Of a DNA stretch of 64,000 nucleotides, positions 12,636 through 31,054 are shown in pieces. The position numbers and the translations under genes were made by a program. The notes under the pieces were generated by a model that searched no databases, had not been told where the DNA came from, and saw only the letters and a list, made by a program, of their open reading frames with translations. The stretch's first letter is position 1. Each line of letters opens with the position of its first letter. This DNA is from an uncultured Prochlorococcus sp. Lineage in GTDB: Bacteria > Cyanobacteriota > Cyanobacteriia > PCC-6307 > Cyanobiaceae. The stretch spans positions 1 through 64,000 of the forward strand of contig NZ_CACMSM010000003.1 in assembly GCF_902616385.1 (NCBI RefSeq), in the 5' to 3' direction.

Positions 12636-12827
12636 CTATTGTTGCTGTTGATCTTGTTGCATTTGTTTTTTCTTCAGTTTCTCATATTCAACGTGCAGAA
12701 CACCTAAACGCCAAGCATCTTTCAATCCTTTTACACCTCCCATTAGGAGTTTTGCATCTGAGGGAGAATGTGACTTCATATTCAAGAAGTCTTTCTGCCA
12801 AGAAGTTTCATCACATTTAGAACTCAT
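12636..12827 (-). CDS. Small hypothetical protein, 63 aa, Gln-rich tail
   Basis: Starts MSSKCDETSWQKDFLN; the middle GGVKGLKDAWRLGVLH reads like a conserved motif and the tail is KKKQMQQDQQQQ. Its ATG overlaps the stop of the upstream 86-aa gene (TAATG), so the two are translationally coupled. The overlapping plus-strand ORF at 12548-12820 is a shadow. Function unknown. Confidence 0.6.
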   Translation of the reverse strand: MSSKCDETSWQKDFLNMKSHSPSDAKLLMGGVKGLKDAWRLGVLHVEYEKLKKKQMQQDQQQQ

Positions 12828-13087
12828 TATTCAACTGGAGTTAGTGAATAGCAAGTATCTTTATAACCATTTTTTTTATCCCAATCTTTCATCTCTGGAG
12901 TACTTGTAGCAGCAGCAAATCCTTCTAAATCTTTGACTTCAAGTATCAAGTGACTTTTATGTTCATTTACCTTGATGAGTTCATATTCTTCAACATATCG
13001 ATGTCCCTCCTTTTCATGGAAATCAGCTACAAATTTATCGAAATCTTCAAAAGAACAATCAAAAGTAGAAACTATTAAGGTATTCAT
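12827..13087 (-). CDS. Small alpha/beta hypothetical protein (86 aa)
   Basis: First gene of a two-gene unit. The pattern (LIVSTFDCSFEDFDKFVADF, HRYVEEYELIKVNEHKSHLILEVKDLEGFAAA) fits a ferredoxin-like or dabb-type small fold, but I cannot name the family with confidence. The start codon directly abuts the T-run of the hairpin element at 13088-13130, leaving no room for a normal Shine-Dalgarno, which suggests leader-dependent control. Confidence 0.65.
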   Translation of the reverse strand: MNTLIVSTFDCSFEDFDKFVADFHEKEGHRYVEEYELIKVNEHKSHLILEVKDLEGFAAATSTPEMKDWDKKNGYKDTCYSLTPVE

Positions 13088-13132
13088 AAAAAAGAGGGTT
13101 TTATCCCTCTATATTAGATCGACTGCCAATCA
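13088..13132 (-). repeat. Dispersed hairpin-leader element, copy A
   Basis: Read on the minus strand: GATTGGCAGTCGATCTAATAT, then the perfect stem AGAGGG/CCCTCT with loop ATAAAA, then six T and the ATG of the 86-aa gene. Shares GATTGrCAGTCGATCTAA with copy B at 20487. It also lies just past the stop of the 40-aa gene at 13134, so it could double as that gene's terminator. Confidence 0.7.
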
Positions 13133-13133
13133 A

Positions 13134-13256
13134 TTAGTAATTAATTAATTTTCTTTTTCCATCTCTAGTTTCTACTTTATTTATTCTTAACCCTATAAAA
13201 GCAGCCCAAATAACTGCAAATAAAATTGGTAAAAAAATGATTGCAAGTTTCATCAT
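13134..13256 (-). CDS. Small single-span membrane protein (40 aa)
   Basis: Two adjacent ATG codons; the product MMKLAIIFLPILFAVIWAAFIGLRI is one transmembrane segment followed by a short basic tail (VETRDGKRKLINY). The hydrophobic pattern is reminiscent of PsbY-type photosystem subunits, but the match is too weak to name. It is directly upstream of copy A of the hairpin element. Confidence 0.55.
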   Translation of the reverse strand: MMKLAIIFLPILFAVIWAAFIGLRINKVETRDGKRKLINY

Positions 13257-13327
13257 TGTTTTAATCCTGTTATTTGCTCAAAAGAATAACCTTTAAATAA
13301 ATAGGAAAAAATAGGTACTTTATCTAA

Positions 13328-13597
13328 TTAAGCAGCATCATATTCTTTATCATCTTCAAGCTCTCTCATAAATCTTTTATCTAATAAGTAATTGTCTATA
13401 AGCTCTGCTGCCATCTGTATCTCAGCAGCAGGTTCTTGTAGATCTTTGTCTAATAAGTAATTGTCAATAAGCTCTAGATTGTTATTTTCATTAATTTGTT
13501 TATCGCTGTTTAATAGTTCTCTTATGTAGTTATATACAAGCTCTTGATCGTATCCACTTTCTCTAATTTCTTTCAACATTTCGTCTGGAATTTCCAT
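13328..13597 (-). CDS. Hypothetical acidic protein with an internal repeat (89 aa)
   Basis: Strongly acidic, helical, no membrane segment. The decapeptide ELIDNYLLDK occurs twice (around residues 42-51 and 65-74), and the DNA of both copies is nearly identical, indicating recent internal duplication. The N-terminus MEIPDEMLKEIRESGYDQ resembles a small helical regulator, but I recognise no family. Confidence 0.6.
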   Translation of the reverse strand: MEIPDEMLKEIRESGYDQELVYNYIRELLNSDKQINENNNLELIDNYLLDKDLQEPAAEIQMAAELIDNYLLDKRFMRELEDDKEYDAA

Positions 13598-13895
13598 AAT
13601 CGTAACCCCACATGTGACATTTTTTTAGAGCAAATTAGAGACTATATACGCATTCTTACGAAAAAATAAGGAAAAAGCAAGAAAATTGGCGAAAAATCGA
13701 GGTGTATAAATCTAGTATTCGCAATCATTTATGGAAAAAGGTTGGAAGAAGACTTCTATATTTAGGAGCTTATTTTAATACTTAATAGCCATCTACCAAT
13801 AAGAAAGAGGTGCAAGTAGTAAGGGTTTCATAAAAAAACAGCTAATGAAAATAGATTTTATTTAGGATATAAAAACAAAATTTAGGGAGGATTAA

Positions 13896-14273
13896 ATGTC
13901 TATCATTACCGACAATACAGTGTTAGTACATATTTACAGCGGTTTAGAATCTAAAAATAAAATAACTTTAGGTTTATTGGTTGCCCTTACTGCAGAAAAA
14001 AACGATCATAAAGTAACACTTTTTCTGGCAGGAGATGGAGTACAAATATTAAATTGCAAAAAAGCTGGTGAAATAGTTGGTCAAGGTACTGGAGATTTAT
14101 ACGAACATCTTCAAAATTTAAAGAATTCAAAAATTACCATATATGTCTCAGGAATGTCTGCTAAATCTAGGGGTTACGATGAGAAGCTTCTAGATGGATA
14201 CACCGCAGAGTTTGTTATGCCAGATGTTCTAGTTGAAGAATCAATTAAAGCGGATAGCGTACTTTGCTATTAA
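13896..14273 (+). CDS. DsrE/DsrF-like family protein
   Basis: 125 aa alpha/beta protein. The TVLVHIYSGLESKNKITLGLLVALTAEKND opening, VTLFLAGDGVQIL, and IYVSGMSAKSRGYDEKLLDGY fit the DsrE/F-like fold (YchN/TusD type). The family includes sulfur-relay proteins; the usual active-site Cys is here replaced by Ser in VSGMS, so sulfur transfer is doubtful. A strong Shine-Dalgarno (AGGGAGG) lies 5-6 nt before the ATG. A terminator-like hairpin follows. Confidence 0.78.
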   Translation: MSIITDNTVLVHIYSGLESKNKITLGLLVALTAEKNDHKVTLFLAGDGVQILNCKKAGEIVGQGTGDLYEHLQNLKNSKITIYVSGMSAKSRGYDEKLLDGYTAEFVMPDVLVEESIKADSVLCY

Positions 14274-14274
14274 A

Positions 14275-14300
14275 AAAGGAGCTTTTTGCTCTTTATTTTG
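14275..14300 (+). terminator. Probable terminator of the DsrE-like gene
   Basis: Stem AAGGAGC / GCTCTTT (one G-U) around a T5 loop, beginning 2 nt after the stop codon, followed by a T-rich but interrupted tail. Confidence 0.5.
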
Positions 14301-14336
14301 ACTAACAATAAAAATAATTGATTCAAGGTAAAAAAT

Positions 14337-14765
14337 TTATCCCTCAGCAGGAATTAAAATTGGAACATCTTTTGCTCCTATTGCTGCAAACCAAACTATT
14401 GCGTTATCAGTTTCTGCATTGCCCATCGTATGTTTTGGTGTCTTTGGACCAACTATAAAAGTATCCCCTGCTGTATAGATAAGATCTTCCAACCCTTGTC
14501 TTTTAACAACTATAGAACCTTGCTCAACATTGCCTAGTAATGGAATTGGATGAGAGTGGAGCGGAACTATCCCTCCTTCAGCTAACTCGACTCTTTGTAA
14601 TCTTATTTCTGCTTTTCCTTTTGGGTATTTAAGAGCATCTCCATCCATAGTCTCAGAACCTACAAAGACTTCTTGTACATCAACTGGAGATTCTGCAGCT
14701 ATAGAAATACTAGGATTGATAAGCATTAATGCAACAACAAATGCTATGAAAATTTTTTTAATCAT
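14337..14765 (-). CDS. Exported cupin-domain protein
   Basis: 142 aa. A Sec signal peptide is evident (KKIFIAFVVALMLINPSISIAAES). The remainder is a single cupin with EGGIVPLHSHPIPLLGNVEQG, which supplies the His-x-His...Glu metal-binding pattern, and GDTFIVGPKTPKHT as the second motif. Expected in the periplasm or thylakoid lumen. Substrate unknown. Monocistronic. Confidence 0.82.
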   Translation of the reverse strand: MIKKIFIAFVVALMLINPSISIAAESPVDVQEVFVGSETMDGDALKYPKGKAEIRLQRVELAEGGIVPLHSHPIPLLGNVEQGSIVVKRQGLEDLIYTAGDTFIVGPKTPKHTMGNAETDNAIVWFAAIGAKDVPILIPAEG

Positions 14766-14946
14766 GAATTTGAATTTCTAGAAAATTATTTAGCCTAATA
14801 TTATTTATTTTTTTCATTTTTGGCAGTACTTAATTTGACTTTTCAAGTTATTTAATCTAAAACCATTTTTTTAAAAGTTTTTTGTAAAGGTATTGAATTT
14901 TTAAAAATTTTTAGTGCAGACACTGATCAAAATTATTCTCATGAAT

Positions 14947-15667
14947 TTAATAATTTAATTCTTTCATCAATAAATTCCAGCCAATTGATGATGCATTCTT
15001 ATGGAAAGATTCTCTTTCCTCGCACATAAAACCATGATCAGCTCCTTTAACTTCGACATAAATAAATCTCTCTTCTAAAGGATCTAGTTTTTTAAATCTT
15101 TTTTTAAAATCTAATCTATCTTGTAAGGGAATTAAATCATCTGAAGAACCGCATATGAAGATTAACTTTCCGGAAACTTTTTCCAGTAAATCTATAGGTA
15201 CAAAATTAGTATCCTTTCTTGGCGCAGTTAACCCTGCCCCATAAAAACAAAATGTACTATCTATTCCTTTTAACGAAGAAGCTATAACTGCTGCATGACC
15301 CCCAAAACAAAATCCAACAATTGAGATTTTCTTTTTTGGATATTTTTCTTTAACCCAATTTAGTGATGCAGAAATATCTTTAATAATATTTTTTGAAGTA
15401 GTTAAATTTTTATGATACCTTCCTAGTTTTAAGTCTTCTTTGCTATATGCTAAATCTAATTTTGGAGCTGTTCTACCGAAAGAGGTAAGGCTAATACGGG
15501 TATATTATGTCTGGCTAATTTTTCAGAAAAACTCCTTATCCAGTGATTTATCCCAAACACCTCTGGTAAAACTATAGATATGTATATTCACACTCACTAT
15601 CTGAATCTACCCACCAAGATCTAAGAGGTAAATCACCACTATAAACGTTTGTCCATTGACCTTTCAT
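14947..15667 (-). pseudogene. Dienelactone hydrolase-family gene broken by two frameshifts
   Basis: The minus strand encodes a full dienelactone hydrolase in three frames. Frame 1 gives MKGQWTNVYSGDLPLRSWW; near 15585 it shifts to the frame of IVLPEVFGINHWIRSF; near 15480 it shifts again to FGRTAPKLDLAY and stays open to the stop at 14947. The catalytic triad is intact: Cys in GFCFGGH, Asp in GSSDDLIP, His in GADHGF. Two lesions in about 110 nt make an inactive gene likely. A hairpin element (copy D) lies just upstream of the start. Confidence 0.82.
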
Positions 15668-15695
15668 TTGTGATTACATAAAAAGTTTTTGCTAG

Positions 15696-15740
15696 AAAAA
15701 AGAGGATTATGTTCCTCTTAGTTTAGATTGTTTTTCAATG
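15696..15740 (-). repeat. Dispersed hairpin-leader element, copy D
   Basis: Minus strand: ATCTAAACT, then AAGAGGA / TCCTCTT stem (7 bp), then six T, about 30 nt before the ATG of the broken hydrolase. The next gene upstream (15980) is on the plus strand, so this copy cannot be the terminator of an upstream minus-strand gene. The remaining spacer 15741-15979 is AT-rich with nothing else visible. Confidence 0.6.
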
Positions 15741-15979
15741 TAAATTTTCCTTATTCAACTTTATAAATTAAATCTTAAATAATGTAGAGAAACTTATACA
15801 GAATTCATTTTTATATAAGTTATATAAATCAAATTAAGTAGTCTTTTTTACCAATTAAATACACCTGTTGCTAAATAAATATATTTGTCCTTGAAAAGCC
15901 CCTAAAAAATACTTTTTCTTGAAATAAAGATTGACAAGACATTCATAAAAAAAACTTTTATAAAACATTAACTTCTTTT

Positions 15980-16294
15980 ATGAATATGTTTTTAACCAAC
16001 AAGACTCGCCTAAAAATTAAAGATATTGTAAAGAGGATTTCACTAGATGAACCTGTCGCGTTGGAAGAAAGAATTTATGTAGAAAAGTTTGCAAAACATA
16101 ATTCAACTATATGGACATGGCTTAAGAAAGCTAATAGCTTGAGGAGATATGGCAAACAAAAATCAGATGGAATAAATGGACTTATCCAGAATCTTGGCCT
16201 TGATGGTTTAGAAACTGAAAATCATTTCGATCCCAAAAATGATGATCTCGCTGATTGGTTTAGTGGATCTCCTGATTGGGTTAGGAGGAGCTAA
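15980..16294 (+). CDS. Hypothetical protein (104 aa)
   Basis: Basic N-terminal half (KTRLKIKDIVKRISLDEPVALEERIYVEKFAKHNSTIWTWLKKANSLRRYG) and acidic C-terminus with FDPKNDDLADWFSGSPDWVRRS. No membrane segment or cysteines. The layout is typical of small conserved picocyanobacterial proteins, but I cannot name a family. Single gene. Confidence 0.7.
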   Translation: MNMFLTNKTRLKIKDIVKRISLDEPVALEERIYVEKFAKHNSTIWTWLKKANSLRRYGKQKSDGINGLIQNLGLDGLETENHFDPKNDDLADWFSGSPDWVRRS

Positions 16295-16321
16295 TTGCCC
16301 TTATTTTAAAATGAATTCAAA

Positions 16322-16495
16322 TTAATAATGAAAAAAGGGAACCTCCTCAACTTGTCTTGGAGCATAATCACAAATTCCGAATTGCATACATTCCATTTGA
16401 GCATCAGTTAGTTTTCTCTCAATTGATAACGTATCAAACAAACCACCAAATGCATGTTGAATTTTATTTTTAATTAGATTTCCGTAAGTAATAAT
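16322..16495 (-). pseudogene. Open frame without a usable start codon
   Basis: A 57-codon protein-like frame (ITYGNLIKNKIQHAFGGL..., ending CDYAPRQVEEVPFFHY) with even composition and Cys-containing segment ECMQFGIC. No ATG, GTG or TTG lies at its head; the frame closes with TAA upstream, and the only internal ATG codons are late. Either an ATT start or a gene that lost its start. Confidence 0.4.
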
Positions 16496-16684
16496 TAACC
16501 CCCTTTTTTAAGAAGTTATTTAGGATTAGTGATATTCAATAATCAAGAGTTTTAATACCTAAAAGTACAAAATATAAATTAATCGTTTTTAAAATATTTC
16601 ACTAAATTCATAATCAGTATTTTTGCTCTAGGAAATTTGAATCATCACCTTTAAATTAGATCCACTGATTGGAGGTTTCACTTC

Positions 16685-16792
16685 ATGAGTACTTACAAAA
16701 CGAAATACTTTAAAAACACAAAAAAGATCAATAACACTCTTTGGTTGGATAAATTAATTAATCAACTTGAAAAAAAATCAAAGGGAGTTTGA
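16685..16792 (+). CDS. Micro-protein, MST...NNTxWLDxLIN family (35 aa)
   Basis: Short basic protein containing NNTLWLDKLINQLEKK. It matches the 38-aa product at 17594 (NNTEWLDELINKIES), which supports both as genuine genes. Its stop is 2 nt upstream of the next ATG, with a GGGAG Shine-Dalgarno inside its 3' end. Confidence 0.6.
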   Translation: MSTYKTKYFKNTKKINNTLWLDKLINQLEKKSKGV

Positions 16793-16794
16793 TC

Positions 16795-16959
16795 ATGAAT
16801 ACATTTAGAAATAAACAATTCAAAAATGAATTAGATCCCAAGTATGCCTTCTATGATTGTCTTCGTAGTTGCGAAATTAAGCGTAGTTCTGAAAAGTCTT
16901 TAGAAGAATGCGTCGAAAATTGTGAACCTAGTCCATTACCAAAGAATCTCGATGGCTAA
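16795..16959 (+). CDS. Small twin-CX3C protein (54 aa)
   Basis: Follows the preceding micro-gene with a 2-nt gap. It contains two CX3C pairs (CLRSC and CVENC, 12 residues apart) in a helical context, the layout of helical-hairpin disulfide or metal-binding proteins. No signal peptide. Another protein with the same layout is at 35627. Function unknown. Confidence 0.65.
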   Translation: MNTFRNKQFKNELDPKYAFYDCLRSCEIKRSSEKSLEECVENCEPSPLPKNLDG

Positions 16960-17036
16960 AAATAGGAATTTAAACTCTATTCAATATCTATTCTGCCTTT
17001 ATAAGGTTTTTATATAAATTTAAGGAGCGTAATCTT

Positions 17037-17195
17037 ATGACTAACCTTGCAATTAAACTACTTCTTCTAATTATAGTTTTAGTTAATTTTGGAACGATCC
17101 TTACCGCTAAAATTTATTCACAATCAGTAAAAGAAATTCAACGTAAGAAATTATTTTGTAGTGAATCTAAAAGTAACCCATATTGTGTTTTTTAA
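17037..17195 (+). CDS. Small membrane protein with C-terminal cysteines (52 aa)
   Basis: N-terminal transmembrane helix (LAIKLLLLIIVLVNFGTILTA), then a basic stretch and FCSESKSNPYC. A Shine-Dalgarno (AAGGAG) stands about 10 nt before the ATG. Same strand as the two preceding micro-genes. Family not recognised. Confidence 0.6.
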   Translation: MTNLAIKLLLLIIVLVNFGTILTAKIYSQSVKEIQRKKLFCSESKSNPYCVF

Positions 17196-17262
17196 TAAAT
17201 TAATTACAAACTAATAACTCTCAAAATAGAGATCTAATATTAAAAATTAAGGTCCACCAAAA

Positions 17263-17370
17263 CTAAAAATAAGGTGTATGTGGTACTTCTGTTTTTAATG
17301 AATCTCCGTAGTAACTTTCAGCTGACTTTAATAGGATCCAATGAATAAAGTTGAGAAAAGATTTTTCCAT
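17263..17370 (-). CDS. Micro-protein of the NFxxWxLLxSAES family (35 aa)
   Basis: Product MEKSFLNFIHWILLKSAESY. It aligns with the 39-aa product at 23463 (MEKALVNFFYWLLIRSAESH) over the first 25 residues, so both are probably real. Amphipathic and possibly membrane-surface bound. Spacer 17371-17593 holds only an out-of-frame ORF that I do not accept. Confidence 0.6.
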   Translation of the reverse strand: MEKSFLNFIHWILLKSAESYYGDSLKTEVPHTPYF

Positions 17371-17593
17371 GGGAACTTCTATACATTTAAATCTTCAAAT
17401 CAGAATTTCAAATAAAAACATCGTAGAAAATACTTAACTGAAGAGATTTAGATTTTCTTAGTTAATTTGTGTTGGTTAGGTTTGTATGAAATGCTACTAA
17501 AGCTTGTCTTATCAATCGATTTGGTAATATTGCTTATTGATTCCTGTAAGTTCAAAAGGTACATTAAATGGACATTCTTAATAAAAGAAATTT

Positions 17594-17710
17594 ATGAGTA
17601 CTCAAAAAAGTCAAAGCCATAAAAGACAAGAGCAAAATAACACAGAATGGTTAGATGAATTAATCAATAAGATTGAAAGCATGAAAAACAAAATATCAAA
17701 TACTTATTAA
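17594..17710 (+). CDS. Micro-protein, MST...NNTxWLDxLIN family (38 aa)
   Basis: Paralogue of the 16685 product: both start MST and share NNTxWLDxLINxxE. Hydrophilic and helical. It is convergent with the LOG-family gene (stops about 40 nt apart). Function unknown. Confidence 0.6.
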   Translation: MSTQKSQSHKRQEQNNTEWLDELINKIESMKNKISNTY

Positions 17711-17750
17711 TCATTCTTCTACATTTGTTATCAAGTCAGCTTGTAGTTTT

Positions 17751-18614
17751 CTAGACTGACTTTCTTGATGATTTGATAATTTTCCATGCTTCTGATGCAG
17801 TGTCTGCATATTGGAAAAGATTTAAATGTTCATCTTCAATTAATCCAAGATCAGCTAAATATTCAAAGTTAATTATCTTATTCCAATACTCTCTACCAAA
17901 AAGTATGATTGGGATTTTAGTTTTCATTCCTGTTTGACAAAGTGTCAATAGTTCAAATAATTCATCTAGTGTTCCAAAACCTCCAGGAAAAAATACGGCG
18001 GCTACTGATCGCATAACAAAATGGATCTTTCTTAATGCAAAATAATTAAATTTAAAGCAAAGACCGGGAGTTATAAAAGCATTTGGGACTTGTTCATTAG
18101 GGAGACTGATATTTAACCCAATAGACTTACAATTTGCTTCAAATGCACCTCTATTAGCAGCTTCCATAATTCCTGGCCCCCCACCTGTAACAATCACATG
18201 AGAATTACAGTTTTTATTTTGATTATTAATTGAAGCAAGTTTAGAAAACTCCCTTGCAGATTGATAGTAACTACTCATTAGAAGCAAATTTTCTAATCTA
18301 TTTAAATTTCGTTTTAGAAGTATCGATTTATGATTTTTTTTAATTAATTCTTTTATATTTTCAATTCTCTTTTTTGTATTTGATTCTTCTGCAATGCTTG
18401 CGCCTCCAAAAATAATTATGGTTGAAAGAATTTTATTTTCTTCAAGGATTAAATCTGGTTTAGTAATTTCAAGAAGCATTCTAACTCCACGCATTTCATT
18501 TCGGCTTAGTAGGCCAATATCTTCGTGAGCCAATTTATAAGTATCAGAATTAATAATTAAATTCAGGTTTTTTAAATTATTACTAGGGGATATATGTTTT
18601 TTCATTTCAAACAA
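17751..18614 (-). CDS. LOG-family (TIGR00730-like) nucleotide phosphoribohydrolase
   Basis: 287 aa Rossmann-fold protein of the LOG/lysine-decarboxylase-like family. The signature loops are present: VTGGGPGIMEAANRGAFEA and FFPGGFGTLDELFELLTL (PGGxGTxxE). Such enzymes release ribose-5-phosphate from nucleoside monophosphates (cytokinin activation in plants). The first 110 residues are extra relative to minimal LOG proteins. It overlaps the upstream cupin gene by 8 nt. Confidence 0.87.
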   Translation of the reverse strand: MFEMKKHISPSNNLKNLNLIINSDTYKLAHEDIGLLSRNEMRGVRMLLEITKPDLILEENKILSTIIIFGGASIAEESNTKKRIENIKELIKKNHKSILLKRNLNRLENLLLMSSYYQSAREFSKLASINNQNKNCNSHVIVTGGGPGIMEAANRGAFEANCKSIGLNISLPNEQVPNAFITPGLCFKFNYFALRKIHFVMRSVAAVFFPGGFGTLDELFELLTLCQTGMKTKIPIILFGREYWNKIINFEYLADLGLIEDEHLNLFQYADTASEAWKIIKSSRKSV

Positions 18615-19125
18615 GAGTTTTTACTTTTCTTTCTATAGGATTAAAATTGACTCTTTTGATTTTGTTATTTTCGTAAATCCAATAAACAGGCGGACTTTTT
18701 CTTGCCTTAATTAAATTAATTTTGTCTAATTTTTGAGGGATAAATTCTTTAGCAGGATCAAAAAATTTATCTCTTTTGGGTTGGTTTAAAACAATACTAC
18801 CTTCTTTCACTGAGATAGATCTGTGATAAGTTCCTATAGGAATTTCTAATGCTCCCATAGATCTATTTAAATAAATCACATGATGAGGTTCATCCCAGGA
18901 AGGATTTATTAAAACAAATTTCCTTTCTCCAGTGATAACTAAATTGTGATCAATTTGATGATTGTGAACGTAATATTGCTCATCTTTTAAATCATCTGGA
19001 GGAGATATAGCTTTTCCAGAATGGATCACAACATCAGAACCATTAGAACTATCTATGCCGGCATCGAAGAATGTGACTTTTGGAGTCTCTCTAAAAATAT
19101 TTATTGGGAAGAATCTTAATTCCAT
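18607..19125 (-). CDS. Cupin-like hypothetical protein
   Basis: 172 aa. The strand-rich middle (NLVITGERKFVLINPSWDEPHHVIYLNRSMGALEIPIGTYHRSI) has the shape of a RmlC-like cupin with DEPHHV and YHR as possible ligand positions. I cannot assign a subfamily. It overlaps the start of the LOG-family gene by 8 nt, so the two are probably made together. Confidence 0.6.
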   Translation of the reverse strand: MELRFFPINIFRETPKVTFFDAGIDSSNGSDVVIHSGKAISPPDDLKDEQYYVHNHQIDHNLVITGERKFVLINPSWDEPHHVIYLNRSMGALEIPIGTYHRSISVKEGSIVLNQPKRDKFFDPAKEFIPQKLDKINLIKARKSPPVYWIYENNKIKRVNFNPIERKVKTLV

Positions 19126-19204
19126 AGTGCTAACTCCCTTTTTGAAAATTTATAAATACTAATAAAAATTTATTTACTTTTAAAAAACAGCTATTTTATT
19201 ATTT

Positions 19205-19351
19205 TTAATTGCAACAAACCAGGCAATCTTCTTGATTTGGATAATCTATACATTCTTTGTTTAAAGTTTCTTCTAAAAAATCTACTTTTTTAACATAATC
19301 AAGATCTTTTAATTTTTTGTTTGGAACCGTGAACTGAGTTTGTAGTTTCAT
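19205..19351 (-). CDS. Small protein with Cys-rich tail (48 aa)
   Basis: Good Shine-Dalgarno (TAGGAGAA) before the ATG. Hydrophilic N-terminal half, then the tail ECIDYPNQEDCLVCCN. The tail pattern EC-x(3)-P-x(4)-C-x(2-3)-C matches the end of the product at 19564, implying a small paralogous family. A metal or redox role is possible but not shown. Confidence 0.6.
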   Translation of the reverse strand: MKLQTQFTVPNKKLKDLDYVKKVDFLEETLNKECIDYPNQEDCLVCCN

Positions 19352-19376
19352 TTTCTATTCTCCTAATTAATACTGT

Positions 19377-19478
19377 TTAATACTGTTTTTTGAATCCATT
19401 CCAAGTTTGAGAAAACCTTAATCCTAAATAAGAAATTAAAATTGTCCAAAATAAAATTTCTATACCTAAATTAGTCAT
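19377..19478 (-). CDS. Single-span membrane micro-protein (33 aa)
   Basis: Very strong Shine-Dalgarno (AAAGGAGG) 9 nt before the ATG. Product MTNLGIEILFWTILISYLGL is one membrane helix, followed by FSQTWNGFKKQY. Its stop is 25 nt upstream of the Cys-tail gene, so they may form a unit. Confidence 0.6.
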   Translation of the reverse strand: MTNLGIEILFWTILISYLGLRFSQTWNGFKKQY

Positions 19479-19563
19479 TTGCTTGGCCTCCTTTCTATCT
19501 GATTATTCTTTAGTACGGGTATTAGGTAAAAATCAAGCGTAAGAATACCTAAAAGTTAAAGTT

Positions 19564-19716
19564 TCAATCACAAAAAATCTTGCAATGGTTGTTACTCGGA
19601 TGTTCTGCACATTCGTTATTCCAATAAGCTTCAAATTCTTTGAGCTCATTATCAAATAAAAGGTTTTTTTTATCCAAATTAATTTCTTTGATAGTAAATG
19701 TGTCATTTAGAGCCAT
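19564..19716 (-). CDS. Small protein with Cys-rich tail (50 aa; ORF track start too long)
   Basis: The track lists an 89-aa ORF to 19833, but the internal ATG at 19716 has an AGAGGTAAG Shine-Dalgarno and starts a compact protein (MALNDTFTIKEINLD). It ends ECAEHPSNNHCKIFCD, like the tail of the 19205 product. The upstream extension looks like untranslated sequence. Confidence 0.55.
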   Translation of the reverse strand: MALNDTFTIKEINLDKKNLLFDNELKEFEAYWNNECAEHPSNNHCKIFCD

Positions 19717-19952
19717 AAGACTTACCTCTTGACTACAACTATGTTCTAATTCATTTGAATAGTAAATTTCAAGTTTTATGTGTGCGGTTAGAGGAACAAA
19801 ATTGTACGGATTAAGGATCAAAAAAAATCTCAAATTATGAATAATTGCAAGGAAAATATCTTCAAAAAATTTATTCCAACTTTAAAAAAAATTGTATAAA
19901 TTTTGTTAGAAATTTTATTCTCTTAATACCTTCTTAGGTCTGCTAGTATCTA

Positions 19953-20082
19953 TTATTCATCTAATCTATCTCCATATTCTCTTAAAATCTCAGCCATCTT
20001 TTGATGTGGAATTTCTTGTCGATATTCTCTACAAAAATTAAAAAATTTATCTAATAAATCTTTATTGGAAAAGATATAAAAA
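19953..20082 (-). pseudogene. Open frame without start codon, 3' of a membrane micro-operon
   Basis: Protein-like minus-strand frame (KDLLDKFFNFCREYRQEIPHQKMAEILREYGDRLDE) that runs straight after the 31-aa gene but has no ATG/GTG/TTG at its head. Only a late internal ATG exists. Probably a decayed gene or fragment. Confidence 0.35.
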
Positions 20083-20178
20083 TTAGCGTCTCATTTTAAA
20101 AGTAAAGTATGCAAATCCACCAAGCAATAAAAGACTCACAACCCCATAAGTTATTGCTATGCCGTACATGTAAGTCAT
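20083..20178 (-). CDS. Membrane micro-protein 3 of a three-gene overlap unit (31 aa)
   Basis: MTYMYGIAITYGVVSLLLLGGFAYFTF is a single membrane helix with a basic end (KMRR). Its ATG overlaps the stop of the 46-aa gene (ATGA). The third member of a tightly coupled set of very small membrane proteins; function unknown. Confidence 0.6.
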   Translation of the reverse strand: MTYMYGIAITYGVVSLLLLGGFAYFTFKMRR

Positions 20179-20315
20179 TTATTTATAAAGACATAAGCAG
20201 AATATAAATAAACTAAGAAAACTCCAATAGCTATGGAACTTCCATAAATAAAAAAGTTCCAAAATCTATATAATTTAGGTTTTTTAAATTCTTTTTCTTC
20301 TTCTTTAGTAATCAT
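20175..20315 (-). CDS. Membrane micro-protein 2 of the overlap unit (46 aa)
   Basis: Charged N-terminus (MITKEEEKEFKKPKLYRFW) then one membrane helix. ATGA overlaps at both ends with the 38-aa and 31-aa genes. It looks like a small photosystem or transport subunit, but no family is recognised. Confidence 0.6.
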   Translation of the reverse strand: MITKEEEKEFKKPKLYRFWNFFIYGSSIAIGVFLVYLYSAYVFINK

Positions 20316-20428
20316 TTATTTTCTTTTTCTTTTCTGGCAGCATTACCTTTTGCTCTTAATACCAAAGTTATCGTAAGAGCAGCGCTTAAAATCACAGCAT
20401 CAATTAATAGGTGCGGGGAAATATTCAT
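20312..20428 (-). CDS. Membrane micro-protein 1 of the overlap unit (38 aa)
   Basis: First of three ATGA-coupled genes. Membrane helix LLIDAVILSAALTITLVL then a basic, Glu/Lys-rich tail. The hairpin-leader element copy B lies about 60 nt upstream. Confidence 0.58.
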   Translation of the reverse strand: MNISPHLLIDAVILSAALTITLVLRAKGNAARKEKENK

Positions 20429-20486
20429 CAGCTGAAAAGAGAAATAAGAAGAGTCAATATTTTTTCAGCAATAAATCTATTAAACA

Positions 20487-20535
20487 TTAAAAAAGAGGGG
20501 TTTATCCCTCTAAGTTTAGATCGACTGTCAATCAC
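20487..20535 (-). repeat. Dispersed hairpin-leader element, copy B
   Basis: Minus strand: GATTGACAGTCGATCTAAACT, then AGAGGG/CCCTCT stem with loop, then T6. Almost identical to copy A in its first 21 nt. It sits upstream of the three-gene membrane unit and about 45 nt past the stop of the 51-aa gene at 20581. Confidence 0.7.
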
Positions 20536-20580
20536 AGTTTATTTTAGCTTTTTATCTTCTCTAAAAAAACAGTATTTTAT

Positions 20581-20736
20581 TTAGCCAGAGCAAGAGAAGG
20601 CACCTGCAAGAATATTTTTAAAAATTGGTGCTTGACCCAAGGCATACAAAAAGAAAGTTGATGATGCGAGAGTAATAGCTATTTTAGAAGCCCTGTTAAC
20701 TTTCAAATTTGAGACTTTTGTAAATGCAGAGTTCAT
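20581..20736 (-). CDS. Small hydrophobic hypothetical protein (51 aa)
   Basis: ATG with AAGGAAC Shine-Dalgarno. Basic N-terminus (KVSNLKVNRASK), a hydrophobic helix (IAITLASSTFFLYALG) and tail AGAFSCSG. One membrane span; family not recognised. The spacer 20737-21021 is AT-rich with no coding frame. Confidence 0.55.
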   Translation of the reverse strand: MNSAFTKVSNLKVNRASKIAITLASSTFFLYALGQAPIFKNILAGAFSCSG

Positions 20737-21021
20737 TTGTTCCTTAATTTATTGACTTTATAATAGCTGCAAAAATTAAATATTCTGCATCAATATTTAC
20801 CAAAGAAGAATTTGAGTGCTCTTTTTCTCAACTTGCATTTTTAATTTTAAAAAATGCTTTTAAGATTAGAGCCAATATTATAGTCTGTATAATTTCTCTT
20901 CAAACATTTTTTAATTTAAATAGATATTTCCTTATAAACTTCAGCAAAGTATTTACCAATTAAATCTTTGGTTGATCTTCTTTATGAAATTTATAACTAA
21001 TTGATGAATTTATATTAATAA

Positions 21022-22620
21022 CTAATTAATCTTTATGAAGTTAATATCTTTAAATTTTCTTAATTTTGTAAATTTAGACCTATTGGACTCATTAAGTTTA
21101 AAAATATCTTTATCACTTATAATTCCATAAATTGTTTTTTTATTGGGTATTTGATTAGTCTCAATTAACTGAGTATTTGCAATATAAAATTTAAATAAAT
21201 ATAATTTTTTATTATCTAAGTTTCCTATAAGAAATATTGGGTTATTATTTATTATTTGTTTAACATCAGATTGATATATAAATTTTTTAATGTCATTGTT
21301 TGGATTTCCTACTATACCAATAGAAAAAAGAAGATTAAGTATTAATATTTCGATAAAAAATATAGATAAGATTTTATTTATATTAAAAGATTGAGTATTG
21401 GTTTTATAAAGTAAATTTGAAGATAAAACTATTGATATTAAAGAAAAAAGAGAAATTACAAATGATTCTATTAAACTAAGTTCACTAAAAATTTTTAAAT
21501 TAAATATTGATCCTAAAAAAATTACTAAAAAGATTATTATCATTAACCCTGCAAATATTCTTAACGTTAATTTAGAGTTATTTGATTTATTTTTAAAAGT
21601 ATCATAAATACCGAAGGAGGCATTTGAAGCAAAAAATGGAATAGTGAATAACATATAGTGCGAATATTTTGAAGCTGTTAACATCAAAATTAAAATATTT
21701 ATTAAAGGAGTAAAAACAAATAATATTTTAATTTCTCTAGATTTATTCTTTAGGATATATCTAGTTCCATTAATAAAAAAAACAAAGAAAGGTGTAGATA
21801 ATAAAAGTAGATTACGTGGATAAAATAAAAATCCTTCAAATATATTATTTTCAGTTAATGTTTTTTGCTCAAATAGCAAATATGGTCTTATTAGAGAATC
21901 AACTCCATATGTTTGATAAGAGATAAAGTAAAAAATTATAATTGGTATTAAACCCACAAAAAATCCAAAAATTAAAAATCTAATATTTTTATAATTTAGA
22001 TTTTTAATTTTCACCAAAAATAGAGGAGATAGACTTATTAGAGGTAGTATTTGTAGATAACTTCTTACAAAAAATGGAAGTGAAAATAATAAACCAATAA
22101 TAAATAAATATCTATTTATAAGATGGCTTTTTAAAAAATTATTTAACTTCAGTAAAAATAAAACACCTAACAAATTTAAAAAAATATAAAGTGTGTCAGG
22201 ACTACAATATTTGTTGTAAGTGAACCAAAGGAATGATGTTGATAAAGTAAAAATAGATATTATTCCTATTTCAAAACTGCTTATTTTTTTTATTATTTTG
22301 AATAATACTACCGAAGAAAGTATTGAAAAAATATAACCTGGTAATCTTGCTGAAAATTCATTTAGTCCAAATATCTTTAAACTCAATGCAATTAACCAAT
22401 AGGAACCAATAGTTTTGTGATGTGCGTTTTCAAAAGGTGTGAACCAATTATTTGTTTCTAATATTAATTTTGCTCTGTTAGCGTAAGCACTTTCATCATG
22501 TGCAATTAAACTATGATTTTCAATAAAAAATAACGAACAAAAAGATATTAAGAGAAGAATAGATATAAGGAGAATTACAAGCTTTTTATTGATTGTTATA
22601 TTATGCTCTATTAAATTCAT
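21022..22620 (-). CDS. Polytopic glycosyltransferase, GT39/GT83 (PMT/ArnT) type
   Basis: 532 aa with roughly 11 membrane segments. The first extracytoplasmic loop begins HDESAYANRAKLI, containing the acidic pair typical of Dol-P/undecaprenyl-P-sugar-dependent GT-C transferases; GSYWLIALSLKIFGLNEFSARLPGYIFS also fits. It would move a sugar from a lipid carrier to an exported acceptor such as lipid or glycan. A lone gene in unusually AT-rich sequence between long spacers, consistent with a transferred island gene. Confidence 0.82.
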   Translation of the reverse strand: MNLIEHNITINKKLVILLISILLLISFCSLFFIENHSLIAHDESAYANRAKLILETNNWFTPFENAHHKTIGSYWLIALSLKIFGLNEFSARLPGYIFSILSSVVLFKIIKKISSFEIGIISIFTLSTSFLWFTYNKYCSPDTLYIFLNLLGVLFLLKLNNFLKSHLINRYLFIIGLLFSLPFFVRSYLQILPLISLSPLFLVKIKNLNYKNIRFLIFGFFVGLIPIIIFYFISYQTYGVDSLIRPYLLFEQKTLTENNIFEGFLFYPRNLLLLSTPFFVFFINGTRYILKNKSREIKILFVFTPLINILILMLTASKYSHYMLFTIPFFASNASFGIYDTFKNKSNNSKLTLRIFAGLMIIIFLVIFLGSIFNLKIFSELSLIESFVISLFSLISIVLSSNLLYKTNTQSFNINKILSIFFIEILILNLLFSIGIVGNPNNDIKKFIYQSDVKQIINNNPIFLIGNLDNKKLYLFKFYIANTQLIETNQIPNKKTIYGIISDKDIFKLNESNRSKFTKLRKFKDINFIKIN

Positions 22621-22864
22621 AATTATTTAAAACAATAGATTCATTATCCATTAATTATTCTATTAAATGAAGGTTGATGTTTATATATTTTTTAAAAATT
22701 AAGAATGGGATTTTTCATGTAATTATTATTAATGATGATTAATTAGAAGGATTGATTATTTAAATAATAAATGTATTAACTATTAATTAGCTTTGAGTAA
22801 GATAAATATAGAGAAATTCCTAATCTTGAAAATTTAGAAAAGTAAAATTTTTAAAAGATAGTTT

Positions 22865-22993
22865 CTGGCAATAAAAGAATACTTTAAAGAAGAAGGGGCT
22901 AAAGATATAGCCCCTCTTGGTGAAACTCTTCCAAAGAAACATCAGATAAATTTTACTTTAAATGATAGTAAGATGGGCAAATTTAACAATTGA
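22865..22993 (+). pseudogene. Startless protein-like frame with internal GC-rich hairpin
   Basis: 42 codons (AIKEYFKEEGAKDIAPLGETLPKKHQ..., ending KMGKFNN) with no ATG/GTG/TTG; only CTG is available at the head. It contains a perfect GGGGCTA/TAGCCCC stem at 22895-22914. The rest of the gene-free stretch 22621-23105 shows nothing I can support. Confidence 0.35.
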
Positions 22994-23105
22994 TAAATTT
23001 AATTTTTTTTAAGCAAGATTTTTTGATACAAATTTATCTAGATCAAAAAATGAGCAGGATTATATTCTCTATACTTAATGAAAATATAAATTTTTATGCA
23101 AAAAT

Positions 23106-23315
23106 TTAAGCTGTCTTTTTAAAAGGGTTCATATTCCTTAAAAAGTTATTACTTTTGCGGGTACTCATTTTTCTATATCTTTGATTTATATCCAGGATAT
23201 ACTTTCTAGCTTTCTTATCACTTTCAATTTTCTTTTTTCGAAGACGTAGAGCCCTTAAATCTTCTATGGACATGAGGCCATCATCTTCATTGAAATTTAA
23301 ATGATCAAATTGCAT
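23106..23315 (-). CDS. Basic hypothetical protein (69 aa)
   Basis: Short acidic start (MQFDHLNFNEDDGLMSIEDLRALRLRKKK as two pieces of charge) and a highly basic remainder ending NMNPFKKTA. It could bind nucleic acid, but no domain is recognised. No membrane segment. Confidence 0.6.
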   Translation of the reverse strand: MQFDHLNFNEDDGLMSIEDLRALRLRKKKIESDKKARKYILDINQRYRKMSTRKSNNFLRNMNPFKKTA

Positions 23316-23462
23316 CAGTTTAAGAAATTAAGTTTCTTCTTTAAGTGCAAGATTAACAACCTTATCTTTATTTGCAATAGAGATAATTAACCAACTTAAT
23401 TTAAATAAGTTATTTAATTTTCAGAAAGCTATGAATTTAAGTATTAAAAACTTTCTAAAAAA

Positions 23463-23582
23463 TCAAGAAAAACTTTTGATTGAATTAGATGGAACTTCTA
23501 CAGATACAAATGATTCTCCATAATGAGATTCGGCTGATCTTATCAGTAACCAATAAAAGAAATTTACTAAAGCTTTCTCCAC
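23463..23582 (-). CDS. Micro-protein of the NFxxWxLLxSAES family (39 aa, GTG start)
   Basis: GTG-started product MEKALVNFFYWLLIRSAES with tail VSVEVPSNSIKSFS. It matches the 35-aa product at 17263. Without the paralogue this ORF would not be convincing. Function unknown. Confidence 0.58.
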   Translation of the reverse strand: MEKALVNFFYWLLIRSAESHYGESFVSVEVPSNSIKSFS

Positions 23583-23726
23583 GAGGATTTAGTAACTAAT
23601 TTAAATAAACTCATCATTTTTGTAATAGCAATATACAAAATAAATTTATTACGCAATCAAGATATTTCCCTCATAAAGCATACTTGCATATAAATTAAGA
23701 AAAATTTGCACTCTCAGGCTTTAGGC

Positions 23727-23775
23727 AGCGGACTAAATCCTTTTGGAGTATTGGACTTTAGTCCGCTCTATTTTT
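23727..23775 (+). ncRNA. Strong stem-loop, possible 3' end of an unannotated small RNA
   Basis: AGCGGACTAAATCC pairs with GGACTTTAGTCCGCT: 14 bp with a single bulged C, 12-nt loop, followed by CTATTTTT. The stretch 23583-23973 (391 nt) has no coding frame and no plus-strand gene upstream, so the hairpin looks like the terminator of a non-coding transcript. Confidence 0.45.
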
Positions 23776-23973
23776 CAGCAAAAGAAAAATAGCACTGCAA
23801 GCTGACTAGATCACTAATTTAATATTTGACTCTGAATAAGCTAATTGAGCAAGAGTATCTGAGCATATTTTGGTGTTATTTATTGTATAAATTTGCTACG
23901 AAACTTTTGTTATATCAATGGCTTCAGTATTTTTGCTCATTGATATATTAATTCTTAAATAATATTATTATTG

Positions 23974-24090
23974 ATGCCTAAAGAGGGTTTAATTTTGAAA
24001 AAAATAATTAAATTTTTTAAACTGATCAAGAGAAGAATCGATATTCTTAATGCAGAGACTGAATTGAAATTTATATTGGAAAATAAATAA
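23974..24090 (+). CDS. Basic micro-protein (38 aa)
   Basis: MPKEGLILKKIIKFFKLIKRRIDILNAETELKF; amphipathic and cationic. Its stop overlaps the ATG of the next gene (TAATG), which argues for real, coupled translation. No family recognised. Confidence 0.5.
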   Translation: MPKEGLILKKIIKFFKLIKRRIDILNAETELKFILENK

Positions 24091-24236
24091 TGGGATTCCC
24101 ACATTGCCCTATTTGTATAGTTCTAGCATTTGTTTCAGTTTTTATGGGAGTTACTCGTAGTTATATGTTTTATATTCTTGTTCGGGAGTTTATGAGAGCC
24201 GAATCTACTTTTAAATTGAAGTTTAGTTCCTGTTAA
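24090..24236 (+). CDS. Membrane micro-protein with CPIC motif (48 aa)
   Basis: Begins MGFPHCPICIVLAFVSVFMG: a Cys-x2-Cys at the start of a single membrane helix, then a basic tail ending FSSC. Coupled to the preceding gene by a 1-nt overlap. Function unknown. Confidence 0.52.
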   Translation: MGFPHCPICIVLAFVSVFMGVTRSYMFYILVREFMRAESTFKLKFSSC

Positions 24237-24272
24237 TTGTTGACATCTAAGTATAAATACTTTATAAATAGA

Positions 24273-24372
24273 TTGTAGTGAAAACTACAAAATCGTCCGA
24301 TCTACCATCTGATAGACCGCAGTACGACTCAAGCCATAGGACGGGGACTTGAGCAAGTTCAGGAGCTGCATC
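24273..24372 (+). promoter_or_regulatory. Structured leader RNA candidate, possibly pseudoknotted
   Basis: Upstream of the 33-aa ORF. A 7-bp hairpin with a GAAA tetraloop (TTGTAGT-GAAA-ACTACAA, 24273-24290); then CGTCC (24294-24298) can pair with GGACG (24339-24343), and CTCAAG (24328-24333) with CTTGAG (24348-24353). The last two helices interleave as in an H-type pseudoknot. A TCTA/TAGA hairpin lies inside. Shine-Dalgarno AGGAG follows at 24361. Local GC is clearly higher than the surroundings. Confidence 0.5.
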
Positions 24373-24474
24373 ATGGTAAACATGTATTTCAATGGAAAGT
24401 CATTCGTATATTGTAGAAAACAAGAAGAAAAGATTATAAAGCTTACTTATAGAGGATCTATTTACTTAAAATAA
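24373..24474 (+). CDS. Micro-protein with DUF4278-like LTYRG motif (33 aa)
   Basis: ATG 7 nt after AGGAG. Product MVNMYFNGKSFVYCRKQEEK followed by IIKLTYRGSIYLK; the LTYRG-x-x-Y motif is the signature of the short cyanobacterial DUF4278 family. The structured region upstream suggests regulated translation. The spacer 24475-24666 shows nothing. Confidence 0.5.
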   Translation: MVNMYFNGKSFVYCRKQEEKIIKLTYRGSIYLK

Positions 24475-24719
24475 GATTTCTAATTTCTTTTTTAAAAAAG
24501 TTTGGACATTTATTGACGTTTTTGGATTAAGTATTTATTAATACTTTATAAGAAGAACTTATAGTGAATATATTTTTTGCCTATTTAAAAATTCATATAT
24601 TCGTATATTTAGTAACGAGAAATTAATTTTAAAATAACTATTTTTTAATTAGATATTTAAACGGTTATGCAACCTATTTCTGAAGAACTTTACAAAAAAA
24701 TAGTTGAGAGTTCTAAAAA

Positions 24720-24794
24720 ATGAGTAAATTACTAATTGCTATATTAGCTTTGGATATAGGCGTTAGTCTTTCTAAAGTTTTTATTTTTACCTGA
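24720..24794 (+). CDS. Possible hydrophobic micro-ORF (24 aa)
   Basis: MSKLLIAILALDIGVSLSKVF; its ATG overlaps the stop of an 18-codon ORF (24667-24723) as ATGA. Supported only by the coupling and the hydrophobic pattern. Could be chance. Confidence 0.22.
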   Translation: MSKLLIAILALDIGVSLSKVFIFT

Positions 24795-24873
24795 AAATCA
24801 AATTGCCTAGTAAAAAAGAAGCAATTGTTTTCTAAAAAAGAAATATTTTCTGGGTATTCATTATTTGATTTAT

Positions 24874-24963
24874 TTATTTTATAAAGTAAATAATTAAACC
24901 AACAAAAGAACTTCCTACAAGTAGTAGCACCATAAAAAGTGCTATTAACTTTGCTAATCCCAT
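24874..24963 (-). CDS. Single-span membrane micro-protein (29 aa)
   Basis: MGLAKLIALFMVLLLVGSSF then a short tail ending YFIK. Its ATG overlaps the 3' end of the 128-aa gene by 10 nt, so expression depends on that gene. The ORF-track entry 24713-25018 is a shadow of this region. Confidence 0.5.
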   Translation of the reverse strand: MGLAKLIALFMVLLLVGSSFVGLIIYFIK

Positions 24964-25340
24964 AAAGATAAATCCGAATTTCCTGTAGATCTTTGCATCC
25001 AGTGAATTTTCCAAACATTATTTACTTTTTTAAAAATTGACGTAACTGTTGGTAAGTCATCATTAGGTGTCCCTTTATAAGAAAATTTTGAACCTAGTGT
25101 AAAAATGCACATTACTATATTTTCGCTTAAAAATTCGAATCGGTGAATTTTAGTTATTTCTGCCTTTTCTTGAACAATTTCATAAGTAATCATTTGTTCG
25201 AACCCTTTTGCATCTATAGGATTACCACTCGGTCTTATGAATAGAAAATCTGGAGTTGCATTGTCGACAAAGAATGAGGCCATTGTTTTTGGATTAGCAA
25301 ACTCATTTAGTAATGAAATTATTGTTTCTTTATTATTCAT
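24954..25340 (-). CDS. NTF2-like (SnoaL/DUF3804-type) protein
   Basis: 128 aa. The N-terminal helix plus FANPKTMASFFVDNATPDFLFIRPSGNP and the strand-rich C-terminus ending VWKIHWMQRSTG match cyanobacterial NTF2-like proteins (DUF3804, as far as I can judge). These are cone-shaped small-ligand or catalytic domains. The ATG directly abuts the T-run of hairpin element copy C. Confidence 0.7.
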   Translation of the reverse strand: MNNKETIISLLNEFANPKTMASFFVDNATPDFLFIRPSGNPIDAKGFEQMITYEIVQEKAEITKIHRFEFLSENIVMCIFTLGSKFSYKGTPNDDLPTVTSIFKKVNNVWKIHWMQRSTGNSDLSLWD

Positions 25341-25378
25341 AAAAAAAAAGGATGTAACCCTTCTAGTTTAGATCTACG
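25341..25378 (-). repeat. Dispersed hairpin-leader element, copy C (degenerate stem)
   Basis: Minus strand: GTAGATCTAAACTAGAAGGG, short AAGG/CCTT stem, long T-run, then the ATG of the 128-aa gene with no gap. The next gene (25463) is divergent, so this copy cannot terminate an upstream minus-strand gene. Confidence 0.55.
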
Positions 25379-25462
25379 GTTTAAAATGTACAAATCAATA
25401 TGGGATGATTCTAAAAAAAATTCGTTAGGATGTTTGAAATAATTAGATTTTTAATGTAAATC

Positions 25463-30729: not shown

Positions 30730-30758
30730 GAGCTTGCAAGTATCCCACAGGCAAGCTC
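30730..30758. other. Perfect 8-bp stem-loop in a gene-free stretch
   Basis: GAGCTTGC/GCAAGCTC with a 13-nt loop containing TATCCCACAG. It lies in the 376-nt region 30679-31054 without coding frames, upstream of an hli gene by about 300 nt. No T-run on the plus strand. Possible small RNA or processing site. Confidence 0.35.
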
Positions 30759-31054
30759 ATGACGAACTAGTTAAATTCAGGTTTTGTAACTTAACCAGCT
30801 AAGCACTTCCTAAATGCTAAATATATTTTAATAAGTAAAATTACTCACTGTGAGTATAAATGCTTATTTTTAAGGATTTATCTTTTAACTTGAAAGTTAT
30901 AAGGTGATCTTATTAAAAAATGCGACCTGATAATTATTTTTTGAATAGAAATGCCAAATATTGATTAATAGATGGTCAGAGATAAATCATTGGCAGCTTT
31001 TGATTTACATAAGTTAATATTTGTGTTACATTAATTAACAATCACAATTTTTTA

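Follow-up and report, generated by a model that had tools for sequence, protein, structure and literature searches.

A putative promoter-terminator recombination joint linking small gene cassettes within high-light Prochlorococcus genomic islands

Results

Four copies of a hairpin element

The window, that is, the whole stretch of 64,000 nucleotides analysed from an uncultured Prochlorococcus sp., contains four copies of a hairpin element, all on the minus strand (13132-13088, 15741-15696, 20534-20489 and 25386-25341), with the consensus TGATTGACAGTCGATCTAAACTAAGAGGGATAAAACCCTCTTTTTT. The GC hairpin with its T-run was scored terminator-like. The earlier note had described a dispersed family at gene starts, and all four of its copies were confirmed as members of a family that exceeds chance: a 16-bp core, ATTGACAGTCGATCTA, gave 13 matches with up to two mismatches in the 1.5-Mb genome, versus 0 when its letters were reversed. 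The short block GATCTAAACT alone was not significant, with 9 matches in the window (one mismatch allowed) against 8.5 expected.

In the copy at 13088, a putative recombination core (13115-13130; ATTGGCAGTCGATCTA, one mismatch) is followed by a -10-like TAATAT (13111-13116), a likely promoter element, and by the hairpin AGAGGG/CCCTCT (13093-13110; z -2.2, scored terminator-like) with a T-run reaching 13088. The T-run abuts the ATG of an 86-aa gene (12827-13087, minus strand) with no Pfam match. Upstream, a 40-aa ORF on the same strand (13134-13256) has its stop 3 nt before the core, and ORFs like it were found as cassettes in L036, L112 and L119. The left flank of this copy occurs with six right partners and its right flank with six left partners. 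The copy at 20487 has an exact core (20517-20532), also a putative recombination core, a -10-like TAAACT that may be a promoter element (20513-20518), the hairpin AGAGGG/CCCTCT (20494-20511) and a T-run to 20489. It has the strongest fold of the four (-13.2 kcal/mol for 50 nt, z -3.2), and 11 left partners were found for its right flank, which occurs in 38 copies.

The core's left half is eroded in the other two copies, neither of which shows any sign of current shuffling. The copy at 15696-15741 keeps TAAACT, a hairpin (15719-15700) and a T-run behind a core with four mismatches, and only one left partner was found for its right flank. In the copy at 25341-25386 the left half of the core is replaced, GATCTAAACT lies at 25374-25365, and a weak hairpin is followed by a T-run that abuts the ATG of a DUF3804 gene (PF12707; 24954-25340, minus strand). 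At least six other loci have similar left and right flanks, and this copy is apparently stuck at one locus.

Some positional claims of the earlier note were adjusted. Its T-run touching the ATG in two copies holds by coordinate at 13088 and 25341, if its copy C is the one at 25341, its letters A-D seeming not to follow coordinate order. The weakest fold of the four is at 25341 (z -0.6). At 20487, the ATG of a short ORF (20487-20485) comes one base after the T-run, and 38 junctions, between them with 11 different left flanks, share this start. The argument that copies between divergent genes cannot be terminators is unsafe, since the copy at 13088 directly follows the 40-aa ORF and the copy at 20487 lies about 48 nt after the stop (20583-20581) of a small same-strand ORF.

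The family, its core and its start region

The conserved part of the family runs from the core ATTGACAGTCGATCTA, an imperfect dyad (ATTGA-CAG-TCGAT), through TAnnnT, usually a covarying hairpin, and a T-run to an ATG. With a model derived from these four sequences, every one of the 24 other sampled genomes of the genus gave between 1 and 13 copies, and 15 genomes from other cyanobacterial families gave none. The family extends throughout one Prochlorococcus genus and into two T4-like cyanophage contigs. About 7 to 18 places were counted per complete high-light Prochlorococcus genome checked; the copies are dispersed and clustered in islands. The core clusters of MED4 lie at 348-360 and 1347-1365 kb. 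The open-access literature searched yielded no description of the element. The 16-bp core, the gene shuffling, the hairpin-less copies and the phage copies were absent from the earlier note.

The full joint of core and hairpin is not universal in the family: of the 372 copies, about 110 belong to right clusters that lack a clear hairpin, in some cases by a strict criterion only. The proposal that TAAACT/TAATAT could be a -10 box gained support, as the TA and the final T are conserved in both classes (final T in 99% of hairpin-class copies versus 87% in hairpin-less right clusters), with the middle three bases variable. No -35 box was found in the sequence common to the copies, and the TTGACA inside the core was ruled out as one, lying just 7 nt from TAnnnT. 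Covariation in the hairpin was clear (109 double-change cells versus 35 shuffled and 4-28 slid), and two different hairpin sequences occur, serving alike. The core also folds as an RNA hairpin, but no covariation was seen in its dyad arms, and the core is therefore taken to be recognised as a DNA site and the hairpin by its fold.

The ATG lies 40-48 nt after the start of the core in 267 copies. The 12 nt before it are at least 80% pyrimidine in 84% of these, compared with 0 of 23 other ORFs of the window, and an SD-like 4-mer was found in 0 of the 267, which upholds the absence of a Shine-Dalgarno sequence noted before. Translation in MED4 is thought to be SD-independent, and S1 has been proposed (PMC5607370). 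Transcription beginning about 7 nt past TAnnnT would start within the 5' arm of the hairpin, so that the gene's own transcript would lack the full hairpin; the mean folding energy was -6.9 for read-through RNA, and RNA that starts at position 26 gave about 0. The earlier note's model, in which the mRNA opens with the hairpin, is not supported and probably needs changing. None of the published MED4 ncRNA starts (PMC2518516) coincides with any core.

Flank swapping and cassettes

Partners are exchanged at the core. In the set of 372 distinct copies, at least two downstream flanks were seen with 46 of the 56 upstream flanks that recur, and at least two upstream flanks with 38 of the 46 recurrent downstream flanks, the 175 flank clusters (single linkage at 72% identity) forming one connected component; the counts include copies from related single cells, which are non-independent. 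In an enlarged set, flanks with at least two partners numbered 48/60 and 42/51 at the core, and far fewer with anchors 150 nt off (8/50, 13/56 and 11/51, 1/50). Linkage to the left flank (z about 13-14, with one position at 6) persists to position -1 and then falls below 3, and linkage to the right flank reaches z 8-10 at the hairpin's 5' arm. Linkage thus changes sides inside the 16-bp core, which indicates that the hairpin travels with the downstream gene; the hairpin sequence shows linkage with the downstream flank and none with the upstream one, bearing out the hairpin-gene link proposed earlier. Selection keeping hairpin and gene together could sharpen this boundary. Twenty-seven left flanks were joined to both hairpin and hairpin-less modules.

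Neighbouring cores less than 1.5 kb apart share one orientation in 120 cases versus 8 in opposite orientation. The stretches between them are mostly single-gene cassettes, mostly of 0.2-1.5 kb and without a tyrosine recombinase, and the swapped cargo consists of small stress-type genes. The earlier note had held that copies occurring mainly after stop codons would mark a mere repeated terminator; this was half borne out, many copies coming directly after a stop codon, but as the element sits at the joint of two genes they precede an ATG as well. Exact gain or loss of a cassette was observed in three filled/empty locus pairs: a 1273-bp cassette with a PDZ protein in the window's own genome (L005) against L032, 349 bp in L040 against L177, and 475 bp in L189 against L158. 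Over the first 100 nt the flanks of these pairs have an identity of 0.96-1.00, and out to 400 nt it stays at 0.955 or above; the identical run common to both cassette ends measured 24, 17 and 32 nt, respectively. The pairs may record loss rather than gain.

Phage copies and the search for a recombinase

In one cyanophage copy (L104) P-SSM2-like DNA begins at the ATG of uvsX, and the other (L105) adjoins phoH. No convincing match to the element was found in 50,697 phage records, nor to two cassette-borne proteins in sequenced phage records, and scans of viral contigs with longer hairpin patterns gave no match; the copies are mostly in host DNA. None of 41 genomes of the genus carried the integron integrase IntI (TIGR02249) above cut-off, and the Y1 transposase (PF01797) was found in 0 of 7 genomes. 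MED4 carries one gene each of the tyrosine- and serine-recombinase families, far from the arrays (the single PF00589 match is at 495 kb), and genes of the resolvase type are present in core-less relatives too. The search yielded no good candidate recombinase, only a near-universal tyrosine recombinase-type gene, at 495095 in MED4, and a resolvase-type gene, at 1457116 in MED4, both of widespread types. No RYYYAAC/GTTRRRY pair as in attC was seen by inspection, the conserved core spanning 16-20 bp.

Discussion

The element is probably a composite promoter-terminator recombination joint that connects small cassettes within high-light Prochlorococcus genomic islands. Sequence comparison shows the family, the flank swapping, the switch point inside the core and the co-inheritance of hairpin and downstream gene, as well as the uniform orientation, the filled and empty sites, the presence in two cyanophage contigs and the hairpin covariation; promoter, terminator and recombinase activities are inferred. 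Modules would be exchanged at the core ATTGACAGTCGATCTA, by homologous recombination or by a dedicated recombinase, and a cassette would reach from just behind one core to the next, with TAnnnT, usually a hairpin, a T-run, an ATG, one gene and a stop. With TAnnnT as the -10 box and transcription beginning about 7 nt downstream, inside the 5' arm, the RNA of the previous gene would form the whole hairpin with its U-run and stop there; the gene's own RNA, lacking that arm, would not be stopped. In this RNA the tract CCCTCTTTTTT or GCTCCTTTTTT before the ATG would act as a ribosome site of the SD-less, S1 type. Every cassette would thereby supply its own promoter, insulator and ribosome entry.

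A sharper form of this explanation specifies the enzyme: in a dedicated site-specific system, integron-like in effect, a putative recombinase would bind the dyad core and move single-gene cassettes. This is possible but doubtful. The linkage switch within 16 bp, the L040/L177 cassette ends with only 17 identical bp (short for RecA), the left flanks joined to both classes of module, the dyad kept as DNA without covariation and the head-to-tail arrays argue for it; the absence of IntI and Y1 in the genomes searched, the single, distant MED4 recombinase genes and the resolvase-type genes of core-less relatives argue against it, and short-homology recombination over many generations could look alike. 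It may be speculated further that high-light Prochlorococcus and T4-like phages share such a dedicated system, with a putative recombinase cutting the dyad core and, in every cassette, a promoter that begins within that cassette's own terminator, so that genes would be insulated and expressed anywhere.

An ordinary intrinsic terminator of upstream genes, duplicated around islands, would agree with the terminator-like GC hairpin and T-run, the frequent position after a stop codon and the strong covariation; it is nevertheless unlikely, as hairpin and downstream gene are inherited together, the most conserved part lies upstream of the hairpin, many copies have no clear hairpin, and a terminator does not require an ATG at constant spacing. 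The fixed distance to the ATG and the link to the downstream gene favour the earlier note's idea of a regulated hairpin at the mRNA 5' end, a cis-acting leader. However, two different hairpins play the same part, the 5' arm is lost with a start after TAnnnT, the covariation is only what a terminator needs, and no Rfam family matches the coordinates of the four copies at the gathering cut-off, leaving this idea similarly improbable. Least probable is a non-autonomous REP- or MITE-like repeat inserted between genes: dispersal, copy number, hairpin and clustering in islands would suit it, but no Y1/RAYT transposase was found in seven genomes, no element-only insertion into an otherwise identical site came up, and one-way orientation with gene cargo fits cassettes better.

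The composite joint bears on a long-standing question, the gene-by-gene assembly of islands without obvious mobile elements in one of the most abundant phototrophs. It offers a specific, countable site that marks cassette boundaries, lets single-cell genomes yield a cassette catalogue and connects host islands to cyanophages. Should the overlap of promoter and terminator be confirmed, the joint would be a compact design for portable, insulated genes.

Coleman reportedly noted a short repeated element in Prochlorococcus islands in 2006, which may be the same sequence as the joint; the earlier note also mentions reports of such repeats. To our knowledge, partner swapping has not been reported for it. 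The REP/RAYT and IS200/605 systems rely on the Y1 transposase missing from the seven genomes. Tycheposons, described as 4-200 kb, tRNA-bordered and equipped with a tyrosine recombinase (PMC10872708), also move genes in Prochlorococcus islands. By contrast, the units here are mostly small, single-gene and without such a recombinase next to a tRNA, the MED4 cores lying away from its PF00589 gene. Integrons are similar in arraying small genes, mostly singly and facing the same way, with exact gain and loss of head-to-tail cassettes and one short site per gene near the stop codon. They differ in their integrase, not found here, in their long attC sites with paired-box folding as against a 16-bp core, and in that the present cassettes apparently bring their own promoter.

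A promoter-early stem-loop (PeSL) of T4-type phages is a small promoter and stem-loop motif between genes of hypervariable regions, the sole homology between unrelated modules, whose shuffling it mediates; recombination between neighbouring PeSLs is reported to give mini-circles. PeSLs were reportedly described by Arbiol in 2010 and Comeau in 2014, both cited in PMC4503421. Both PeSLs and the joint, the latter with a putative promoter, combine such a motif with modular shuffling and involve T4-like phages: unrelated modules are swapped here, and the hairpin class has a covarying hairpin with a T-run, for which termination is predicted. The copies here, however, reside in host chromosomes, with only two T4-like phage contigs; against the sigma-70-like early promoter of PeSLs, TAnnnT is conserved with no -35 box in common; some modules have no hairpin; and exchange is confined to the 16-bp core upstream of it. 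Likened by description, PeSLs of T4 phages are proposed as the closest known system, the joint also being somewhat like integron cassettes.

Four Copies in the Window

The four copies of the hairpin element reported in the earlier note were recovered on the minus strand at 13132-13088, 15741-15696, 20534-20489 and 25386-25341. They have in common GATCTAAACT or a variant of it, a short G+C hairpin and a T-run, and in three of the four an ATG follows within one base (ATG at 13087, 20487 and 25340). At copy 13088, the stop codon of a small same-strand ORF lies 3 nt upstream of the core. Short ORFs adjoining the elements (window 20485-20487 and 13134-13256, minus strand) are easily missed, being below the 60-aa limit for ORF listing. 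Chance was excluded not by the four copies themselves but by a wider search, in which the 16-bp block at up to two mismatches occurred 13 times in the source genome and not once with its letters reversed.

Distribution Among Genomes and Islands

The covariance model of the four copies, a search proposed in the same note, detected 1–13 copies in each of 24 other sampled genomes of the genus, whereas 15 genomes from other cyanobacterial families gave no hit. Among sampled members of the family, all 6/6 genomes of this genus had the block at up to one mismatch, and the other genera gave a single 1-mismatch match, in one genome only. When 85,462 species were scanned for an exact pattern, at least 119 stretches matched, the listed titles being those of Prochlorococcus or uncultured Synechococcaceae single cells.

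Genome G015, which we take to be MED4, carries 16 copies; two clusters, together making up 1.8% of the genome, hold 13 of these. On the ncRNA coordinates and island labels published for MED4 (PMC2518516), both clusters fall within or next to islands 1 and 5. The small RNA Yfr20, a marker of island 5, was found above the Rfam gathering score at window 30731-30819 (minus strand), which suggests that this part of the genome corresponds to MED4 island 5. A Glutamine-II riboswitch aptamer was also detected above the gathering score, at 24291-24353 (plus strand).

Anatomy of the Joint

In 372 distinct copies with up to two mismatches, the order was stop codon of gene 1, core ATTGACAGTCGATCTA, TAnnnT, hairpin, T-run and ATG of gene 2, with stop codons concentrated between -14 and +5 relative to the core and ATGs between positions 41 and 47. 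The hairpin occurs in two principal versions (AGAGGG..CCCTCT and AAGGGGC..GCTCCTT), and its paired bases show covariation across the family. As an imperfect dyad that shows no covariation, the core is read as a DNA site. By a strict criterion, no clear hairpin was found in 46 of 117 right-flank clusters; the core is still kept in these, and the final T of TAnnnT is retained in 87%. Several hairpin-less right modules (L036:1123, L112:3295, L208 and others) have a second motif in common, CTCGACCCTAC..TAGATAAAGTACC, which precedes small ORFs.

Shuffling of Flanks and Cargo

Separate clustering of the left and the right flanks gave two or more partners for 46/56 recurrent left flanks and 38/46 recurrent right flanks, counts to be read with caution since the clusters are single-linkage and the single-cell genomes related. 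Anchors placed 150 nt off and treated in the same way gave 8/50 and 13/56, and 11/51 and 1/50, against 48/60 and 42/51 for the core in an enlarged set. Identity linked to the left flank persists to position -1 and is lost by the hairpin, and that linked to the right flank starts after the core. This places the exchange of modules inside the core and assigns the hairpin to the downstream gene. In the window, flank partners mark copies 13088 and 20487 as shuffling junctions, and copies 15696 and 25341 look fixed in place.

Neighboring cores less than 1.5 kb apart were in the same orientation in 120 cases and opposite in 8. Filled and empty versions of individual loci were found, one of the filled ones lying in the source genome (contig C20; L005 versus L032). 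Between stretches L040 and L177, the difference is a 349-bp cassette whose ends share only 17 identical bases.

The cassette genes are small and include DUF3303, DUF3764, DUF3804, ABM, DsrE, plastocyanin-like, PDZ and cupin families. The published MED4 ncRNA Yfr11 (PMC2518516) ends 15 nt before a core (L057:13391, minus strand; MED4 about 358590), which raises the possibility that cassettes carry small RNA genes as well. Different cassette proteins of L005, L075, L129, L158 and L170 begin with almost the same N-terminal signal-like stretch (MKRLLLPLLAALALP...), as though leader peptides, too, were exchanged.

The element is also present on two viral contigs. L104, from a T4-like cyanophage, carries three cores (1-1100, plus strand) flanking DUF3764 and cupin genes, the final core lying immediately before uvsX; similarity to P-SSM2 begins at the uvsX ATG, which in P-SSM2 is preceded by gp43 and two further genes. 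In L105, a single core separates phoH from a 41-aa ORF, the start of which resembles that of a gene at a joint in a MED4 island-1 array. Either contig may be a chimeric assembly, but finding two independent cases lowers that likelihood.

Among candidate recombinases, no integron integrase was found in 41 genomes of the genus, nor a Y1 transposase in 7. One resolvase-type gene was present in each of 7 genus genomes checked (in MED4 at 1457116-1457526, plus strand), and such genes occur also in relatives lacking the core. Most genomes checked have one tyrosine recombinase-type gene apiece, of about 390 aa.

Proposed Expression and Comparison With Known Systems

If TAnnnT acts as a -10 box, RNA would start near position 26, where the 5' arm of the hairpin ends; RNA from the previous gene would carry the whole hairpin, and RNA from the cassette's own start would not. 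The computed mean folding energy is -6.9 kcal/mol for the read-through RNA and about 0 for the latter. A pyrimidine-rich 12-mer precedes the ATG in 84% of 267 copies, and an SD-like 4-mer was found in none of them (0/267), consistent with the view that MED4 initiates translation independently of Shine-Dalgarno sequences, perhaps via S1 (PMC5607370).

The joint has only part of the membership features of PeSLs, and likewise of integrons. Coleman reportedly described, in 2006, a short repeat in Prochlorococcus islands, which may be the same sequence as the element. In the form of its arrays the joint is similar to integron cassettes, and its mode of working comes closest to that of PeSLs in T4-type phages.
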